64,000 nt of DNA from an uncultured Candidatus Saccharibacteria bacterium (GTDB lineage: Bacteria; Patescibacteriota; Saccharimonadia; Saccharimonadales; Saccharimonadaceae), in contig CAMZAD010000004.1 in NCBI GenBank assembly GCA_947304155.1, positions 1 through 64,000 of the forward strand. Reading direction: 5' to 3'. Shown here in pieces: positions 54,062 through 63,518 of this stretch; position 1 is the first letter of the stretch; every line of letters starts with the position of its first letter. The position numbers were made by a program, and so were the translations under genes. The notes under the pieces are model-generated. The model had not been told where the DNA came from. It saw only the letters and a list, made by a program, of their open reading frames with translations, and did not search any database.

Positions 54062-54406
54062 ATGGATATAGAAGGTATTCTTACGGTTTTATCAGTTAAA
54101 GCGGAACAATGTCATACTGCGATTTTGCATTTTGATTGTGGAGATGGTGGTCAGGCTATGTTTGATTTGTTAGCTCTGGTAGTTAATATTTTCTCATATG
54201 GCATTGGTGCGGCAGCTGTGATTGGTGTAATGATTGCTGGTATTCAATATATTACTGCGCGTGAGAACCCAAATGCAGTGGCAAAAGCAAAAACTCGTTT
54301 ATTCCATATCACTCTTGGCTTAATTGCTTGGGTATTCATGTGGGGTATTTTGCAGTTCTTGCTTCCTGGTGGCTTGTTTGCAAATAATAGCGCTAACCAA
54401 ATGTAA
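54062..54406 (+). CDS. VirB2/TrbC-like small membrane protein
   Basis: 114 residues. Two hydrophobic helices (about 33-62 and 82-102) joined by a polar loop YITARENPNAVAKAKTR, the layout of type IV secretion pilin-like (TrbC/VirB2, PF18895-type) proteins common in CPR genomes. Two cysteines precede the first helix. No other secretion gene is adjacent, so its partner machinery is unknown. Confidence 0.65.
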   Translation: MDIEGILTVLSVKAEQCHTAILHFDCGDGGQAMFDLLALVVNIFSYGIGAAAVIGVMIAGIQYITARENPNAVAKAKTRLFHITLGLIAWVFMWGILQFLLPGGLFANNSANQM

Positions 54407-55454: not shown

Positions 55455-56501
55455 ATGAGTTTATTACATGGTGTGGGCGATTTCTTCGCATTAGATGTCG
55501 GTACAAATTCAATCCGTTTAATACAGCTTTCTGGTAACACGGAGCGTGGTTGGACTCTCGAAAAATATGCTTATGTGCCAATCGACCCAAAAATTGCACT
55601 AGATGACTCTGAAATCGGCCAAAGAAAATTAGCCGAGACTATTTTGGGTGCAAAGGAACAGGCTGGTATTACAACTAAGAACGTTGCGCTCGGTTTGCCA
55701 GCAAGAAAGACTTATACTTCTATTATTGAAGTGCCAAATGCACCAATGAAAGAGATTAAGAACACGATTAAATATGAAGCTGACCAATATATTCCAATGC
55801 CAATTGACGAGGCAAAGGTTGATTATGCAATTCTTGGTGTTTCACCAAATGATGCAATGAAGGCAGAAGTTTTGATTTCTTCAACAGCAAAAGAATATGC
55901 TGAAGAGAGAATGGAACAAGTAGAAATGCTTGGTCTTAACGTAATTGCTCAAGAGCCAGAGCCAATTTCAATGGCTCGTGCACTTGCTCCAATTGGTATG
56001 ACCGACGGTAGAATGCTGATTGATCTTGGTGAGAAATCTACAGATATTGTAGTGGTTTATCAAGGCGCTCCACGTTTGGTACGTTCAATTCCTGGTGGTC
56101 TTTCTCAGTTTGTGACGACAATTGCTGATTCATTATCTGTTAGACCAGATCAGGCAAAGCAATTCATTTTGAAATTTGGTTTGGCACAAGATAAACTTGA
56201 TGGCCAAGTCTTTAAGGCACTTGATAATTCGCTTGAAACTTTTGCAATGGAACTTTCGAAATCTGTTCGCTTCTTCCAGACAAAATATGTTGGCGCACAA
56301 GTTGGTGGAATTATTCTCTCGGGTTATGCCGGTGTGATTCCATTTATCGCAGAATACATGGAAGTTAAAACTAATATTCCAACAATTCAGGGTAACCCAT
56401 GGCAATATGTACGTGTTACACCAGAGCAACAACAAGCATTGCTCCCGGTGGCTTCTGAATTCGCGGTAGCAATTGGCTTGGCGGAAAGGAGTAATGAGTA
56501 G
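55455..56501 (+). CDS. pilM: Type IV pilus assembly protein PilM
   Basis: 348 residues. Actin-like cytoplasmic protein that binds the N-terminus of PilN. FFALDVGTNSIRLIQL at the start, YEADQYIPMPIDE, LIDLGEKSTDIVVV and GGIILSGYAG are the expected ATPase-fold motifs. First gene of the pilus operon; its TAG overlaps the GTG start of the next gene. Confidence 0.95.
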   Translation: MSLLHGVGDFFALDVGTNSIRLIQLSGNTERGWTLEKYAYVPIDPKIALDDSEIGQRKLAETILGAKEQAGITTKNVALGLPARKTYTSIIEVPNAPMKEIKNTIKYEADQYIPMPIDEAKVDYAILGVSPNDAMKAEVLISSTAKEYAEERMEQVEMLGLNVIAQEPEPISMARALAPIGMTDGRMLIDLGEKSTDIVVVYQGAPRLVRSIPGGLSQFVTTIADSLSVRPDQAKQFILKFGLAQDKLDGQVFKALDNSLETFAMELSKSVRFFQTKYVGAQVGGIILSGYAGVIPFIAEYMEVKTNIPTIQGNPWQYVRVTPEQQQALLPVASEFAVAIGLAERSNE

Positions 56502-57928
56502 TGGCAAAGAAATATGATTTTAGTTCAATGCACCTTTCTGATATTCCAGGATTTATTGGTGCAGCTGTAACTGGTAAGCTTGGTGATACTGGTGAAATGA
56601 TGACCACTCAAACTGGGTTTTATGAGATTAATCTCGTGCCAGATATCAAGAGTGAGATGATTAAGACTCAGAAGATTAGAAATATTGTTTTCTTCGTTTG
56701 TATCATTATTGTACTTATCGCTGGGGCGTCGGTTGGTGTACTTGCATCAATCAAAGGTGCACAGGACATTACGATGGCTAGCCAAGATGGACATCTTAAG
56801 AAGTTGTCTGATAAAGTGATGAGTTACTCTGATTTGACAGAATTTTTGACAATTCAGAACCAGCTTAATGGTATTGCTAGTGTTGAGGATCAACTTAAGG
56901 TGATGCCACGTTCAGTTTTGTACTTGAAGTCTTTGATTCCAAATGGTCCTGATACGGTTCAGGTTTCTGAACTTAGTATTAGTCTTGATGAATCAACTTT
57001 GTCGTTCGATGCACAAGCAAATGCTGGGACCGAACCTGATATCGACTACCGCGTGCTTGAATCGTTCATTAAACGTGCAAATCTCATGACCTTTGATTAT
57101 GGTAGATACGTTGATGATAAGGGAAATGAAATCCCGACTCGTTGTATTGTTGAATATGATTCAAATAACAAGATGTTCCAAGAAAATGGTAGCATTTACG
57201 CAATTTGGACACGTGGCCGCAAAGGTTGTGACCCAGGACGTGATGACTATGAGGTAATTGAGGGTCAAAAGATTAGCTTCATGAATGCAACAATCGAGTC
57301 AACTAATGTGTTGTCAAATGAGTCAATCTTAAAGATTAAGAAGAACGATGCTGGTGAAGATGTGAGCATTCTTGAGTATACTCCAAGTGAAAAAATCTAT
57401 CGTACACCACAATTTACAAACTGGTATAAGGGTGTAGAACAGAGCACTGCAAAAGATGGAATTGAGGATGACGTTAAAGTTATTCCTCCAACCAGTAGCA
57501 CCTTGGTGAATATTACTTACTATCGCTACACTCCAGAAATGAGTCTCTCTGGTTCAATCTCGGGCGTGCCGCATTTTGAAAGTCAATGTATTACTTACAG
57601 TGGTACAGAAGAGGAATCTGATGGCGAGGTTAAAATTAAATGGTCCGCATCAAATGAATGTATGTTGATTCCTGATGGAATCACGGTAAACGATTCTTCA
57701 AACGGTCGTGACGCAGATGAAAACTTGGTTTTGCGCTTCTCGGCAGTTGTAAAACTTAACGAGGATGCTTTGAAATATAGAAACAAACATGTGATGGCAA
57801 TTGGTCCAAACGGCCAGAACGTGACAGACTCTTACGTCCAGCTTAATAAGATATTTACACAACCTGCACGCGCATGTTCTGCAAACGATACAACGTGTAA
57901 CAACACGCCAACGAAAGGAGATAAATAA
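56501..57928 (+). CDS. pilN: PilN-like pilus assembly protein
   Basis: 475 residues, much longer than typical PilN (about 200). The PilM-binding motif YEINLVPDIK is at about 42-51, followed by one membrane helix (about 65-90) and a ferredoxin-like region to about 190. The remaining 280 residues form an extra beta-rich external part with six or more cysteines, peculiar to this lineage. GTG start coupled to pilM; the stop overlaps the next ATG (TAATG). Confidence 0.85.
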   Translation: MAKKYDFSSMHLSDIPGFIGAAVTGKLGDTGEMMTTQTGFYEINLVPDIKSEMIKTQKIRNIVFFVCIIIVLIAGASVGVLASIKGAQDITMASQDGHLKKLSDKVMSYSDLTEFLTIQNQLNGIASVEDQLKVMPRSVLYLKSLIPNGPDTVQVSELSISLDESTLSFDAQANAGTEPDIDYRVLESFIKRANLMTFDYGRYVDDKGNEIPTRCIVEYDSNNKMFQENGSIYAIWTRGRKGCDPGRDDYEVIEGQKISFMNATIESTNVLSNESILKIKKNDAGEDVSILEYTPSEKIYRTPQFTNWYKGVEQSTAKDGIEDDVKVIPPTSSTLVNITYYRYTPEMSLSGSISGVPHFESQCITYSGTEEESDGEVKIKWSASNECMLIPDGITVNDSSNGRDADENLVLRFSAVVKLNEDALKYRNKHVMAIGPNGQNVTDSYVQLNKIFTQPARACSANDTTCNNTPTKGDK

Positions 57929-58857
57929 TGGCTGAAGTAGCAGTTGGTAAAAGAATCAGAATCAACAAGCTTCAACAGCAAATTATGTTGGCTGTGCTTG
58001 GCGCATCGTTGGCATTTGGTGTTTGCTTAGTGTTGGTGATTTTCTTAACGAAGTTCATTATATTCAATACGAAAGTCATTTCAGAAAAAGATAAGGCGAT
58101 TGATAGCTATTATAGTGCAATTAAAAATGTTGGTATTTGTATCGACAATAACAAAGATGGTAAATATACCGATAATGAACTTGATAAATGTCAGCCAAAC
58201 GAAATTGATGTAGCTGATATTCCTGGAACATTGCGCTATAACGTTCTCGTAAATATGACAGAGAATAACGCGCTTGAATCGGTCGCACGTGATAGTCATT
58301 CAGATTGTTATGATACGAGCGGAAATAAAATCGATTTTGGCAAACGTTATGATGATGCAACTACTGATGAAGAACGTGAACATAACATGTACATGTTTAA
58401 AGTTTGTTCATCACTTAGGGTGATTCCGGATGCTTTGCCGGCATCATATAACGCGGAGGCTTTGATGTCTTCAGTGAACAAAATTTTCTTAATATCTGGT
58501 TTGCAACCTGATGGTTTGATGCCGGATAGTGGTGGTGCAAGTTTTAGCAATAATGGCGTATCACTCGTAGCAATTCCAATTACATTAACCGTAAAACAGC
58601 CTGCAACTAAGGCACAGGCTTTGCTTGATAACTTCTATAAGTCAATTCGTTTGTTTAGCTTTAAGTCAGCAAACTATAAGTGGAGTAATCAACTTGAAGT
58701 TTCTGCAACTGGTGAAGCATATTACACAAACCAAGTGAAGGCTTCAGAAACAACCAAGACAGTTTATGCCTCAAAGGAAGCTAGAAAGCAAGCTTCTGGA
58801 AATGCTGCTTTAGTCAATAACACAGTTGATGATGTTGTCAACGGAGGAGGAAATTAG
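57928..58857 (+). CDS. pilO: PilO-like pilus protein with EF-hand loop
   Basis: 309 residues. One membrane helix at about 19-42, then an external coiled and ferredoxin-like domain, in the PilO position of the operon. Residues 73-84 (DNNKDGKYTDNE) form a canonical EF-hand calcium loop with ligands at positions 1, 3, 5 and 12 and Gly at 6. It is flanked by Cys71 and Cys88, 16 residues apart. This insert is not part of ordinary PilO. Calcium binding is inferred. Confidence 0.82.
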   Translation: MAEVAVGKRIRINKLQQQIMLAVLGASLAFGVCLVLVIFLTKFIIFNTKVISEKDKAIDSYYSAIKNVGICIDNNKDGKYTDNELDKCQPNEIDVADIPGTLRYNVLVNMTENNALESVARDSHSDCYDTSGNKIDFGKRYDDATTDEEREHNMYMFKVCSSLRVIPDALPASYNAEALMSSVNKIFLISGLQPDGLMPDSGGASFSNNGVSLVAIPITLTVKQPATKAQALLDNFYKSIRLFSFKSANYKWSNQLEVSATGEAYYTNQVKASETTKTVYASKEARKQASGNAALVNNTVDDVVNGGGN

Positions 58858-58858
58858 T

Positions 58859-59167
58859 ATGAAACAATCAGATATTTTCTCAGTGATTATTATCGCAGTA
58901 GTTGGAACATTGGTAGCATTCTTTGTGACGAATTCGTTGCTTGGCGATCCAGATATGCAATATGTAACATTTAAAACAATGAATACAATTTCTCCAACTT
59001 TGATTGAGCCAGACATTGAGGTGTTTAACCCTGACGCAATTAACCCAACGGTTGAAGTTTATGTTGGTGATTGCGAGGACGTAGATAAAAACGGTATTTT
59101 GTCTCCAGAAGAAATGGCAGCTTGCGAAAAGGCTGAAGGAGATTCCAAAAACATAAATGCTTTGTAA
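58859..59167 (+). CDS. Small membrane-anchored pilus-operon protein with EF-hand loop
   Basis: 102 residues from ATG 58859, with GGAGGAGG upstream. One membrane helix at about 6-28, then a short external domain. Residues 74-85 (DVDKNGILSPEE) form a second EF-hand loop, bracketed by Cys72 and Cys89, again with 16 residues between the cysteines. It sits between pilO and pilB, where a PilP-like or minor component would be; I cannot name a family. Probably calcium-binding at the outer face of the membrane. Confidence 0.75.
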   Translation: MKQSDIFSVIIIAVVGTLVAFFVTNSLLGDPDMQYVTFKTMNTISPTLIEPDIEVFNPDAINPTVEVYVGDCEDVDKNGILSPEEMAACEKAEGDSKNINAL

Positions 59168-59203: not shown

Positions 59204-60970
59204 GTGGCATTACTAACTAAAGAATTACAAGAACAGGTTGTAAAGCTTCTCGTTACAGAAGGGTTAGTTTCTGCTGCGCAAGTTCAAGAAGTACAGGAAG
59301 AGGTGCTAAAAACACGTCAGCCAATTTTGGCGTTTTTGACATCTCATAAATATACTGATGATGAGACAGTGAGTCATGCTACGGCTTCTGTGATGGGTAT
59401 CCCATATGTGAACTTGAATAATGTCAGAATTGAAAATGACATTCTTTTGAAGATTCCTTATGACGTGGCGGAACGCACGATGGTGGTGCCGCTAGGCGAG
59501 AAAAATGGACAGCTTTATGTAGCGATGCTTGATGCGCAGAACGTGCAATCAACAGATTACATTTCTACACTCGTGCAAAAGCCGGTTCGCACGATTATGT
59601 CGAGCGAAGCTGGGATTCGTTTGATTCTTGCGCAATATCAGGGTGATTTTACGGCGGTTAAGGATGCTGTTAAGACGACCAACCAAGAGATTTTGGCAAG
59701 TGAGCAAAAAGCGGACGTAAAAACAATTACGCAGGATTCGCCAATTTCAAAGGCACTTGTGACGATTCTTGAATATGCTGCAAAAACCAAGGCATCTGAT
59801 ATTCATATTGAACCGCTAGAAAAGTCGCTAGTAATTCGTTGTCGCGTGGATGGCGTGCTTAGGAAAATTATGGAGCTTCCAAAGACGATTGAGCCGGCAC
59901 TAGTTTCACGTATTAAAATTTTGTCTAATCTTAAAATTGACGAACATCGTATTCCGCAAGACGGCCAGTTTACTGTGATGGCAGCAGGGAAAGAGATTGA
60001 CCTTCGTATTTCAACTTCTCCAGTGGTTTGGGGTGAGCAGGTTGTGATTCGTCTTTTGGACAAGAGTGGTACAACGCTTGCAATTGAACAAATGGGTATG
60101 ACTGGTCGTGTACTGAGAATGGTTGAAAGTGGCATTTCAAAACCAAATGGTATGATTTTGACATCTGGTCCTACTGGTTCTGGTAAAACTACGACGCTTT
60201 ACGCACTAGTAAATAGAATTTTTGATGAGAAGATTAATATTGTGACACTCGAGGATCCAGTTGAGTATAAGATGGATGGTGTAAACCAGATCCAAGTAAA
60301 TGTTGACGCTGGTCTGACATTTGCGGCTGGGCTTCGTTCAATTTTGCGTCAAGACCCTGACGTAGTGATGGTTGGTGAGATTCGTGACTCTGAGACTGCA
60401 AACTTGGCAGTGCAGGCTGCACTTACTGGCCACTTGGTGTTTTCGACACTGCATACCAACTCAGCAGCTGGTATTTTGCCACGTCTTCTAGATATGGGAA
60501 TTGAGCCATTCTTGCTTGCCTCGACACTTAATACTGTGATTGGTCAGCGCTTGGTGCGTCGCGTATCGGATAAGAGGGAAGCATATACTTCAACTGAACT
60601 TGAAACAAGGGAAATTAATGAGGCGCTTGGATATGTTTTGCCAAAGACACAACAAGATGTGGCGATGGTGTCAGAAGATTTGGGCTATCCAGGCTTGCCG
60701 ATTGCAAATAATAATGGCTATACGCTCGTAAGAGGGATTGATGACCGTGATACCCCGGGCGGTTATAAAGGTCGTGCTGGTCTTTATGAAACGATTGAAG
60801 TGGATGAAGATATTCAAAAACTAGTCACAACGAGGTCAACTTCAGCCGAGATTATGAAAGTTGCAAAAGAAAAGGGCACGTTAACGATGAAGCAGGATGG
60901 GATCCTGAAAGCTCTATCTGGAATTACAACGATTTCCGAGGTTAATCGTGTGGCGTCAGACCTTGCTTAG
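59204..60970 (+). CDS. pilB: Pilus extension ATPase PilB
   Basis: 588 residues from GTG 59204 (AAGAAGGG upstream). N-terminal GspE-type domain (MshEN-like), then SDIHIEPLEK, LSNLKIDEHRIPQDGQF, Walker A GPTGSGKTTTLY, Asp box EDPVEYKMDGVNQ, Walker B LRQDPDVVMVGEIRD and His box TGHLVFSTLHTN. The usual C-terminal tetracysteine zinc site is missing: RRVSDKREAY stands where RRLCxxC is typical. Confidence 0.95.
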   Translation: MALLTKELQEQVVKLLVTEGLVSAAQVQEVQEEVLKTRQPILAFLTSHKYTDDETVSHATASVMGIPYVNLNNVRIENDILLKIPYDVAERTMVVPLGEKNGQLYVAMLDAQNVQSTDYISTLVQKPVRTIMSSEAGIRLILAQYQGDFTAVKDAVKTTNQEILASEQKADVKTITQDSPISKALVTILEYAAKTKASDIHIEPLEKSLVIRCRVDGVLRKIMELPKTIEPALVSRIKILSNLKIDEHRIPQDGQFTVMAAGKEIDLRISTSPVVWGEQVVIRLLDKSGTTLAIEQMGMTGRVLRMVESGISKPNGMILTSGPTGSGKTTTLYALVNRIFDEKINIVTLEDPVEYKMDGVNQIQVNVDAGLTFAAGLRSILRQDPDVVMVGEIRDSETANLAVQAALTGHLVFSTLHTNSAAGILPRLLDMGIEPFLLASTLNTVIGQRLVRRVSDKREAYTSTELETREINEALGYVLPKTQQDVAMVSEDLGYPGLPIANNNGYTLVRGIDDRDTPGGYKGRAGLYETIEVDEDIQKLVTTRSTSAEIMKVAKEKGTLTMKQDGILKALSGITTISEVNRVASDLA

Positions 60971-61019: not shown

Positions 61020-62300
61020 ATGCAAAACGAAAATCCAGCAAACACAAACCCAATGATGCAACAACCTGCACCAGTGGCACCAAATCCAGTTGCGGCTATG
61101 CCGGCTGCTCCTGCTATGCCTACCGTTGAGCATTCGGCTATGAATAATGGCTCTGAAGCGGATGAAATTGCTGTTCCAACAACTGCGTCTCATGCGGCAG
61201 CAGCTGCTGCAGCGGCGACTCCAACCGCAGTTCCTTCATCTGTTAGAATTGAGATTTTGCTTGAAGAATGTATTAAGAAAAATGCTTCAGACCTTCATAT
61301 TCAGGTTGGACTCCCTCCAATTTTACGTATTGATGGTGCATTGCAACCAATTCCAAACACTCCAGTTTTGACTGAAGATATGGTTGAGAAGTTGATTTTC
61401 TCAACGCTTGATTCAATGCAACGTGAAACTTTGTCAAAAGATAAAGAGTTTGACTATTCATTTGCATTTGGTGATATCGCTCGTTTCCGTGCAAATGCCT
61501 TTAATGAAAAAGGGAATCTTGCAGCAGCATTTCGTCTAATCCCAACTAAGATGCCAACAATTGAAGAACTTGGTATGCCACAAGTTGTATCCACATTTGC
61601 AGATTACCCACGTGGTTTGGTGCTTGTGACTGGTCCTACTGGTTCCGGTAAATCTACGACTTTAGCAGCACTCGTGAATAAAATTAATATGGAAAAATCA
61701 GTCCATATTGTGACGATTGAAGACCCAATTGAGTTTACACATAAACCAAAGCGTTCAGTAGTGGTGCAACGTGAAGTTCACTATGATACCTTCTCGTTTG
61801 CACGTGCTTTGAAATCTGTGCTTCGTCAAGACCCTGATGTGGTATTGCTCGGTGAGATGCGCGATCTTGAGACAATTTCATCTGCGATTACAATTGCTGA
61901 AACTGGTCACTTGGTGCTTGCAACGCTTCATACTAACTCGGCAGCACAATCGGTTGACCGTATTATTGATGTGTTCCCAGCAGAGCAACAACCACAGATT
62001 CGTTCACAGCTTGCATCAGTTCTGATGGCGGTTTGTTCACAACGTCTCATTCCAGCAATTGGAGGTGGACGTGTAGTGGCAGCCGAAGTGATGGTTGCAA
62101 ATTCAGCTGTCCGTTCAATCATTCGTGAAGGGAAAACCCACCAGCTCGATACGACGATTCAAACTGGTGCAAACGAAGGTATGCAGACAATGGACCGCAC
62201 GCTTGCTAAGCTCGTGCAACAAGGTACGATTACTTATGATAACGCGCGTGAATGTGCAATCGATGTAAATGAATTCGATAGATTGGTAAAGGGAATCTAA
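61020..62300 (+). CDS. pilT: Pilus retraction ATPase PilT
   Basis: 426 residues. A Pro/Ala/Met-rich, probably disordered N-terminus of about 75 residues precedes the PilT core: ASDLHIQVGLPPILRIDG, Walker A GPTGSGKSTT, Walker B LRQDPDVVLLGEMRD, TGHLVLATLHTNSA, and the PilT-specific IREGKTHQLDTTIQTG (AIRNLIREGK equivalent). Indicates retractable pili, hence twitching or DNA uptake. Confidence 0.95.
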   Translation: MQNENPANTNPMMQQPAPVAPNPVAAMPAAPAMPTVEHSAMNNGSEADEIAVPTTASHAAAAAAAATPTAVPSSVRIEILLEECIKKNASDLHIQVGLPPILRIDGALQPIPNTPVLTEDMVEKLIFSTLDSMQRETLSKDKEFDYSFAFGDIARFRANAFNEKGNLAAAFRLIPTKMPTIEELGMPQVVSTFADYPRGLVLVTGPTGSGKSTTLAALVNKINMEKSVHIVTIEDPIEFTHKPKRSVVVQREVHYDTFSFARALKSVLRQDPDVVLLGEMRDLETISSAITIAETGHLVLATLHTNSAAQSVDRIIDVFPAEQQPQIRSQLASVLMAVCSQRLIPAIGGGRVVAAEVMVANSAVRSIIREGKTHQLDTTIQTGANEGMQTMDRTLAKLVQQGTITYDNARECAIDVNEFDRLVKGI

Positions 62301-62303
62301 TAG

Positions 62304-63518
62304 ATGAAGCGTTTTTCCTACAAAGCAAGGGACTCGAAGACCGGAAGGTCAGTCAGAGGCGCAATCCAGGCAGAGAATGAACGAACTGCCGGAAAGCTTT
62401 TGATTGAGCAAGGTTTTACACCAGAGTCGATTGTTGAGGAGGAAGAGGGCGGAAACTTTTTAGATAGATTCCGCAATAAGATTAGAGGGAAAGATAGGAA
62501 CGTCTTTACGAGGCAGTTTGCAACTTTGATTGGTGCAGGTTTGCCACTTTCTAACTCTTTGCGTGTAGTGGCAGAACAGACTACTTCAAAGCCAATGAAG
62601 AAAGTAATTGAAGCAATTTTGGCAGATGTTGAAGGTGGTCGTACTTTAACGCAGGCATGTTCAAAGTATCCAGAGGTGTTTAATAATTTGTATATTGCAC
62701 TTTTGAAAGCTGGTGAGGCATCTGGTACGCTTGATATGTCACTTGTGCGTTTGGCTGACCAGAACGAAAAAGACGAGAAAATGATGTCTGACATTCGTGG
62801 CGCTTTGACGTACCCAGCAATTATCATGTTGGTCATTATTGCAGTGTTGGTATTCATGGTGATTGTGGTGGTGCCACAAGTTGAGAACTTGTATCGCGAC
62901 CTTAAAAAGGATCTTCCTGGCGCAACGGCGTTCCTTGTTGGAATTTCAAACTTTATTACGTCATATTGGTATATTGTTTTGGTAGCAGTGGCGGTATTGA
63001 TTTGGTTCATTGTACAATTTGCGAAGACCGATGTTGGTAAAAGATGGATTGCGATTGGTAAATTGAATGTGCCATTGTTTAAGGGGTTATTCTTAAGGCT
63101 TTATAACTCACGTTTTGCACGTACGGCACAAAACTTGCTTTCGACCGGCGTTTCAATCCAGGATGCTTTGAAGATTTCTGGTGAAGCAGTAGGGAATATC
63201 ATGGTGCAAGAACAAATTGAAATCGTAATGGAGAAGATTAAACAAGGTAAGCCATTATCTGATTCAATGAAGGAACGTGATTATATTTTGCCACTTTTGC
63301 CGCAGATGGCAAACATTGGTGAACAATCCGGTAAGATTGATGAGATGCTCGGTAAGGCTGCGACGGTCTATGAGAACGAGCTTGATGAACAAATTCGTAC
63401 GATTTCAACTTTGATTGAGCCGATTTTGATGGTCGTAATGGCTCTTCTCGTTGGGTTCATTGTGATTGCAGTTTTGATGCCAATTTATGCAATCGTTTCT
63501 GATGTTCAAACTGGTTAA
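62304..63518 (+). CDS. pilC: Pilus inner-membrane platform protein PilC
   Basis: 404 residues. Two GspF-type domains (about 60-185 and 265-390), each followed by hydrophobic helices; FTRQFATLIGAGLPL and RTAQNLLSTGVSIQDALK are the domain starts. Coordinates PilB and PilT at the base of the pilus. The start follows the pilT stop by three bases. Confidence 0.96.
   Translation: MKRFSYKARDSKTGRSVRGAIQAENERTAGKLLIEQGFTPESIVEEEEGGNFLDRFRNKIRGKDRNVFTRQFATLIGAGLPLSNSLRVVAEQTTSKPMKKVIEAILADVEGGRTLTQACSKYPEVFNNLYIALLKAGEASGTLDMSLVRLADQNEKDEKMMSDIRGALTYPAIIMLVIIAVLVFMVIVVVPQVENLYRDLKKDLPGATAFLVGISNFITSYWYIVLVAVAVLIWFIVQFAKTDVGKRWIAIGKLNVPLFKGLFLRLYNSRFARTAQNLLSTGVSIQDALKISGEAVGNIMVQEQIEIVMEKIKQGKPLSDSMKERDYILPLLPQMANIGEQSGKIDEMLGKAATVYENELDEQIRTISTLIEPILMVVMALLVGFIVIAVLMPIYAIVSDVQTG

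Follow-up and report, generated by a model that had tools for sequence, protein, structure and literature searches.

The window analysed here is the whole stretch of 64,000 nucleotides, whose source very likely belongs to the parasitic Saccharibacteria of the genus Candidatus Nanosyncoccus or its GTDB equivalent. It carries a type IV pilus (T4P) operon in the order pilM, PilN-position gene, pilO, small-protein gene, pilB, pilT-like ATPase gene and pilC. Its counterpart in Nanosynbacter lyticus is T4P locus one, i.e. the locus bearing the retraction ATPase (PMC12206443). Two cysteine-bracketed loops of EF-hand type, hereafter modules 1 and 2, lie in PilO and in the small protein encoded next to it. 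The features are the following:

55455..56501, plus strand: pilM (Pfam PilM_2, E=6.8e-38)
56501..57928, plus strand: PilN-position protein, 475 aa (ORF and position; homologues at the same position in relatives)
57928..58857, plus strand: PilO, 309 aa (M. xanthus PilO profile; 2rjz fold)
58138..58191, plus strand: module 1 in PilO, C71-x-DNNKDGKYTDNE-x3-C88, with the loop (residues 73-84) at 58144-58179
58306..58407, plus strand: C127 and C160, a second cysteine pair within the PilO insert (invariant alignment columns)
58859..59167, plus strand: small protein, 102 aa, between pilO and pilB (ORF from ATG 58859)
59072..59125, plus strand: module 2 in the small protein, C72-x-DVDKNGILSPEE-x3-C89, with the loop (residues 74-85) at 59078-59113
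59204..60970, plus strand: pilB, extension ATPase (T2SSE E=5e-121, MshEN E=1.2e-13)
61020..62300, plus strand: pilT-like ATPase (T2SSE E=1e-51)
62304..63518, plus strand: pilC, platform (T2SSF E=8e-58)

Ahead of the operon, a gene at 54062-54406, located upstream of a diacylglycerol-kinase-like gene, encodes another small protein whose similarity to T4SS_pilin is weak (E=2.1e-5, below the cut-off). The PilN-position protein gave no match in Pfam or NCBIfam. Its ectodomain contains three cysteine pairs (C215/243, C363/387 and C459/466), which recur in relatives, and its length of 475 aa compares with ~240 aa in other genera. None of the 146 PilN proteins examined, which include some cut off at a contig or locus end, contained the Cys-bracketed EF loop.

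PilO was assigned on profile similarity, predicted fold and the presence of pilM, the PilN-position gene, pilB and pilC together with pilO. The protein is composed of a transmembrane (TM) segment with a long helix (residues 4-68), an insert (~66-160) and the PilO core (163-270). The M. xanthus PilO (3jc8) was matched by profile at E=2.8e-5, and the core fold (residues 163-270) aligned with 2rjz (Z 10.7, rmsd 2.3, 89 residues aligned) and 5uvr (Z 9.1), Foldseek returning 2rjz_A at E=1.1e-4. The Pfam PilO model matched 11 of 70 PilO relatives (best 7.7e-5) and gave no match to the window's PilO itself; no matches were obtained when the genome contigs were searched with the single PilO sequence. 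The insert of ~90 residues is lineage-specific, being absent from the homologues of 218-250 aa found in other genera of the family. In the AlphaFold2 model, helix 4-68 is followed by a loop and by helix 82-87, with a pLDDT of ~92-94 in that part, and module 1 is thus predicted to form the helix-loop-helix of an EF-hand atop the membrane-proximal helix. Among curated EF-hand models, EF-hand_5 was matched by three of the 70 PilO relatives (best 0.0025). Module 1 belongs to an alignment-complex protein of the T4P and is located past its membrane helix, in agreement with the location at the outer face of the pilus motor given by the earlier note.

The small protein was taken to start at ATG 58859, which yields 102 aa and agrees with the residue numbers of the earlier note; the mechanical ORF used an upstream TTG at 58826. 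It consists of a TM helix (residues 3-28) and a conserved linker ending in NPTVEVYVG, after which module 2 follows. Its gene adjoined pilO in the loci examined, and its conserved core comprises a single membrane helix plus a stretch that closes with NPTVEV-x-[VI]G. A longer form of this core, EP-x3-[VI]FN-x3-[AI]-NPTVEV-x-[VI]G, recurs throughout the family (loci L001-L202) between pilO and pilB. An alignment search gathered 149 relatives; Pfam and NCBIfam contained no matching model. AlphaFold2 predicted helix 3-28, a long low-confidence linker, a hairpin (67-74), the loop and a helix (83-100), with a confidence of 82-84 at the loop and an overall pTM of 0.28. Strand 72-74 precedes the loop in this model, giving a strand-loop-helix arrangement, which is a described setting of the same calcium loop (PMC3123361). 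VIA-align with this model (pTM 0.28) found no match. EF-hand_1 gave matches at E<=0.1 (best 0.0011) to 8 of the 36 relatives of the small protein.

Both modules follow the form Cys-x-[loop]-x3-Cys with exactly 16 residues between the cysteines, and both loops have 12 residues, acidic or amide ligands at positions 1, 3, 5 and 12 and Gly at position 6, so that the earlier description of two canonical EF-hand loops was accurate to the residue. Its remark that the surrounding sequences differ needs a minor correction, as G-x-C precedes the loop in both. The pairing of EF loops within one domain was discarded, the window proteins and most relatives having one loop per chain. Specificity was assessed by searching DNA for Cys-x-D-x-[DN]-x-[DN]-G-x5-[DE]-x3-Cys, with the reversed pattern as a control. 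The 770,681-base genome contained two matches, namely the two modules, and none to the control; 100 genomes of the same genus contained 51 matches in 35 genomes, mapping to syntenic PilO or small-protein genes, and one to the control. The other genomes sampled across the phylum (about 286-287) gave two matches, each in a short reading frame with no link to pili. These counts rule out a chance origin of the pattern. The loop alone, searched in the own genome and requiring a codon of hydrophobic type at position 8, retrieved the small protein only, a definition that excludes PilO with its Tyr at this position. The window proteins had no Pfam EF-hand match. When the PDB was searched with either module by itself, only weak hits short of significance were returned, most of them resembling EF-hands. 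The small-protein query matched PilO of relatives over residues 64-95 (E ~0.02-0.1).

In the 51 loops of the small protein, D, G and E were invariant at positions 1, 6 and 12, as were both cysteines, position 3 was D/N, position 5 N/D and position 8 L/I, and positions 2, 7, 10 and 11 varied freely; the 26 PilO loops behaved similarly, with positions 1 and 12 invariant and a slight relaxation at position 6. Part of this invariance arises by construction, the loops having been chosen by pattern. As an independent check, 36 small proteins, collected for the most part by whole-protein similarity, were aligned, and C72, D74, G79, E85 and C89 proved invariant. Judging from these sequences, the ligand pattern of the small protein is under selection and bears the signature of ion coordination.

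In line with the earlier note, the cysteines behaved as disulfide partners, being both invariant and even in number: the PilO ectodomain had exactly four in 110 of 110 proteins, and the small-protein tail had 0, 2, 4 or 6 in 143 of 143. Two DsbA-like thioredoxins with membrane anchors (CPAC and CPYC) are encoded in the own genome. Because cysteine counts are even and DsbA-like oxidases are present, the bracketing cysteines very likely form disulfides. No VKOR was found in a search of this genome. A multi-span membrane protein with a GCPTCG motif is encoded next to a DsbA-like gene (L207:1264-1884, minus strand, on contig C2 of the own genome); VKOR being absent, it could be the re-oxidising partner of the DsbA-like protein.

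The distribution was examined in a non-redundant set of 147 loci. Outside the genus, the small protein is mostly ~72-77 aa long, ends after the conserved core and usually lacks cysteines; 16 other-genus loci had no PilO insert, and cysteines were absent with few exceptions. A related group of 18 loci has different cysteine loops in the small protein, e.g. CGPMEVWDANAKVC; in the small proteins of L012, L172 and L177-L188, such a loop occupies the calcium-loop site. Within the genus proper, the bracket cysteines of PilO, as well as C127 and C160, are invariant even where ligands are missing. A ligand-free bracket, C-K-xPKGxxYSDEEL-x2-C, one residue shorter, occurs in the PilO of 59 species, whose small protein typically has C-x-EYDxxGxC; from the recurring KPKG form, the sequences suggest that the ligand-free bracket is old. 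The small-protein EF loop was found in 54 species. In 26 of these it is accompanied by a PilO EF loop under a PROSITE-like definition, and no species has the PilO loop alone, i.e. the PilO loop is nested within the small-protein one (26/26). In 27 species, the small-protein loop is present and that of PilO is missing. Additional EF loops with cysteines are present in some small-protein tails, three in L046 and L142 and two in L161, the second of which is at the C-terminus.

On the PilB tree, the ligand-free group forms a single, fully supported clade. Three changes are required for the small-protein loop and at least five for the PilO loop (relaxed definition, parsimony, without direction). 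The co-occurrence of the loops stems from one part of the tree with few independent changes, and the sign test had too few independent pairs; because of this phylogeny, nesting is weak evidence for an interaction between PilO and the small protein. The proposal of a general Saccharibacteria module was too broad: the small-protein ligands are kept clade-wide, but most of the genus has the PilO bracket without ligands, and the module is confined to part of the Nanosyncoccus clade. Records bearing it are mostly ruminant-gut MAGs, with one human oral single-cell genome (HOT 351). No habitat link was seen, species lacking the module sharing the same habitats, which lends no support to the suggested role of salivary or host-surface calcium.

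We consider it rather probable that the modules act as a structural staple, combining disulfide and calcium at the extracytoplasmic face of the PilMNO alignment complex, and not as a switch. Each loop would be a single EF-hand-type calcium site shut by the disulfide between its flanking cysteines. The PilO loop, where the lineage-specific insert begins, would cap the membrane-proximal coiled-coil helix at its upper end, and that of the small protein would be appended to the conserved NPTVEVYVG segment. Extracellular calcium would keep the sites mostly filled, and calcium and disulfide together may stiffen an assembly of PilN, PilO and the small protein, probably against retraction load. Because the PilO cysteine pair is invariant even without ligands, structure would have come first, with calcium as an added reinforcement. 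Against a calcium staple, the many relatives that lack ligands show that the pilus machine can dispense with calcium, and an EF loop without a partner often binds only weakly. The lack of a VKOR to re-oxidise the DsbA-like proteins also counts against it.

The earlier note had instead envisaged a sensor, in which external calcium fills or empties the loops and thereby tunes pilus extension, retraction or attachment. Canonical loops in an alignment complex speak for it, as does the action of calcium on the pilus protein PilY1 in other systems (PMC3248442, PMC8833165). A conserved regulator is nevertheless difficult to reconcile with PilO sites that change state so often on the PilB tree and are missing from most of the genus, or with the lack of a habitat link, and closure by a disulfide at millimolar calcium would favour constant occupancy; a sensor is less likely than a structural cap and on the whole unlikely. 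Similarly doubtful is that the disulfide-closed loop alone matters, the acidic residues being a surface or interface feature and no calcium being held in the cell. The brackets without ligands, almost equal in length, that most of the genus carries would fit, but not the small-protein loop, in which strictly invariant positions 1, 6 and 12 and D/N-only positions 3 and 5 alternate with freely varying ones.

Similarly unlikely is the reading that the loops of PilO and the small protein pair between chains as a split EF-hand, calcium zipping both proteins together. The adjacency of the genes, the shared loop and cysteine spacing and the confinement of the PilO loop to species with the small-protein loop are as it would predict. 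However, pairing is not required in the 27 species with the small-protein loop only, the association reflects few independent changes, and the small protein is predicted as strand-loop-helix, not helix-loop-helix. If it were nonetheless true, calcium would fasten two alignment-complex partners in part of the Nanosyncoccus clade.

In the Saccharibacteria investigated to date, type IV pili have proved essential or important (PMC10633639, PMC12206443), and their machinery has until now been regarded as conserved. In the present case, lineage-specific ectodomains, rich in disulfides and predicted to hold calcium sites, have been added to the alignment complex, and the pilus operon includes, across the family, an unnamed small protein whose core is conserved in its own right. 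These features offer a clear, testable handle on the bracing, outside the membrane, of a wall-spanning pilus machine that has no secretin. A full-text search of the literature, covering open-licence papers only, brought up no mention of EF-hand loops in either PilO or the small protein.

Regarding known systems, PilP is encoded after pilO in pilMNOP and, like the small protein, is attached to the membrane at its N-terminus and continues as an extended stretch. The small protein differs in having a single TM helix and ~100 aa. It has no lipobox cysteine, there being no cysteine before residue 72, and no PilP domain was recognised by Pfam or NCBIfam; the likeness is positional only, and the small protein is possibly a functional counterpart of PilP. 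The window's PilO shares the TM segment, the long helix, the core domain and the place after pilM-pilN with PilO of type IVa pili (2rjz, 5uvr and 3jc8), from which it differs by the ~90-residue insert between coiled coil and core, with its two cysteine pairs and EF loop. With the EF-hand superfamily and Dx[DN]xDG calcium loops (PMC3123361), the modules have in common the 12-residue loop, the canonical ligands and the predicted settings, helix-loop-helix in PilO and strand-loop-helix in the small protein; unlike them, they are single Cys-bracketed loops in T4P alignment-complex proteins. Finally, the calcium sites of PilY1/PilC are likewise calcium-type D-rich loops in a pilus-associated protein, but PilY1 is a tip or priming protein, whereas the loops described here belong to the membrane-anchored assembly machinery.
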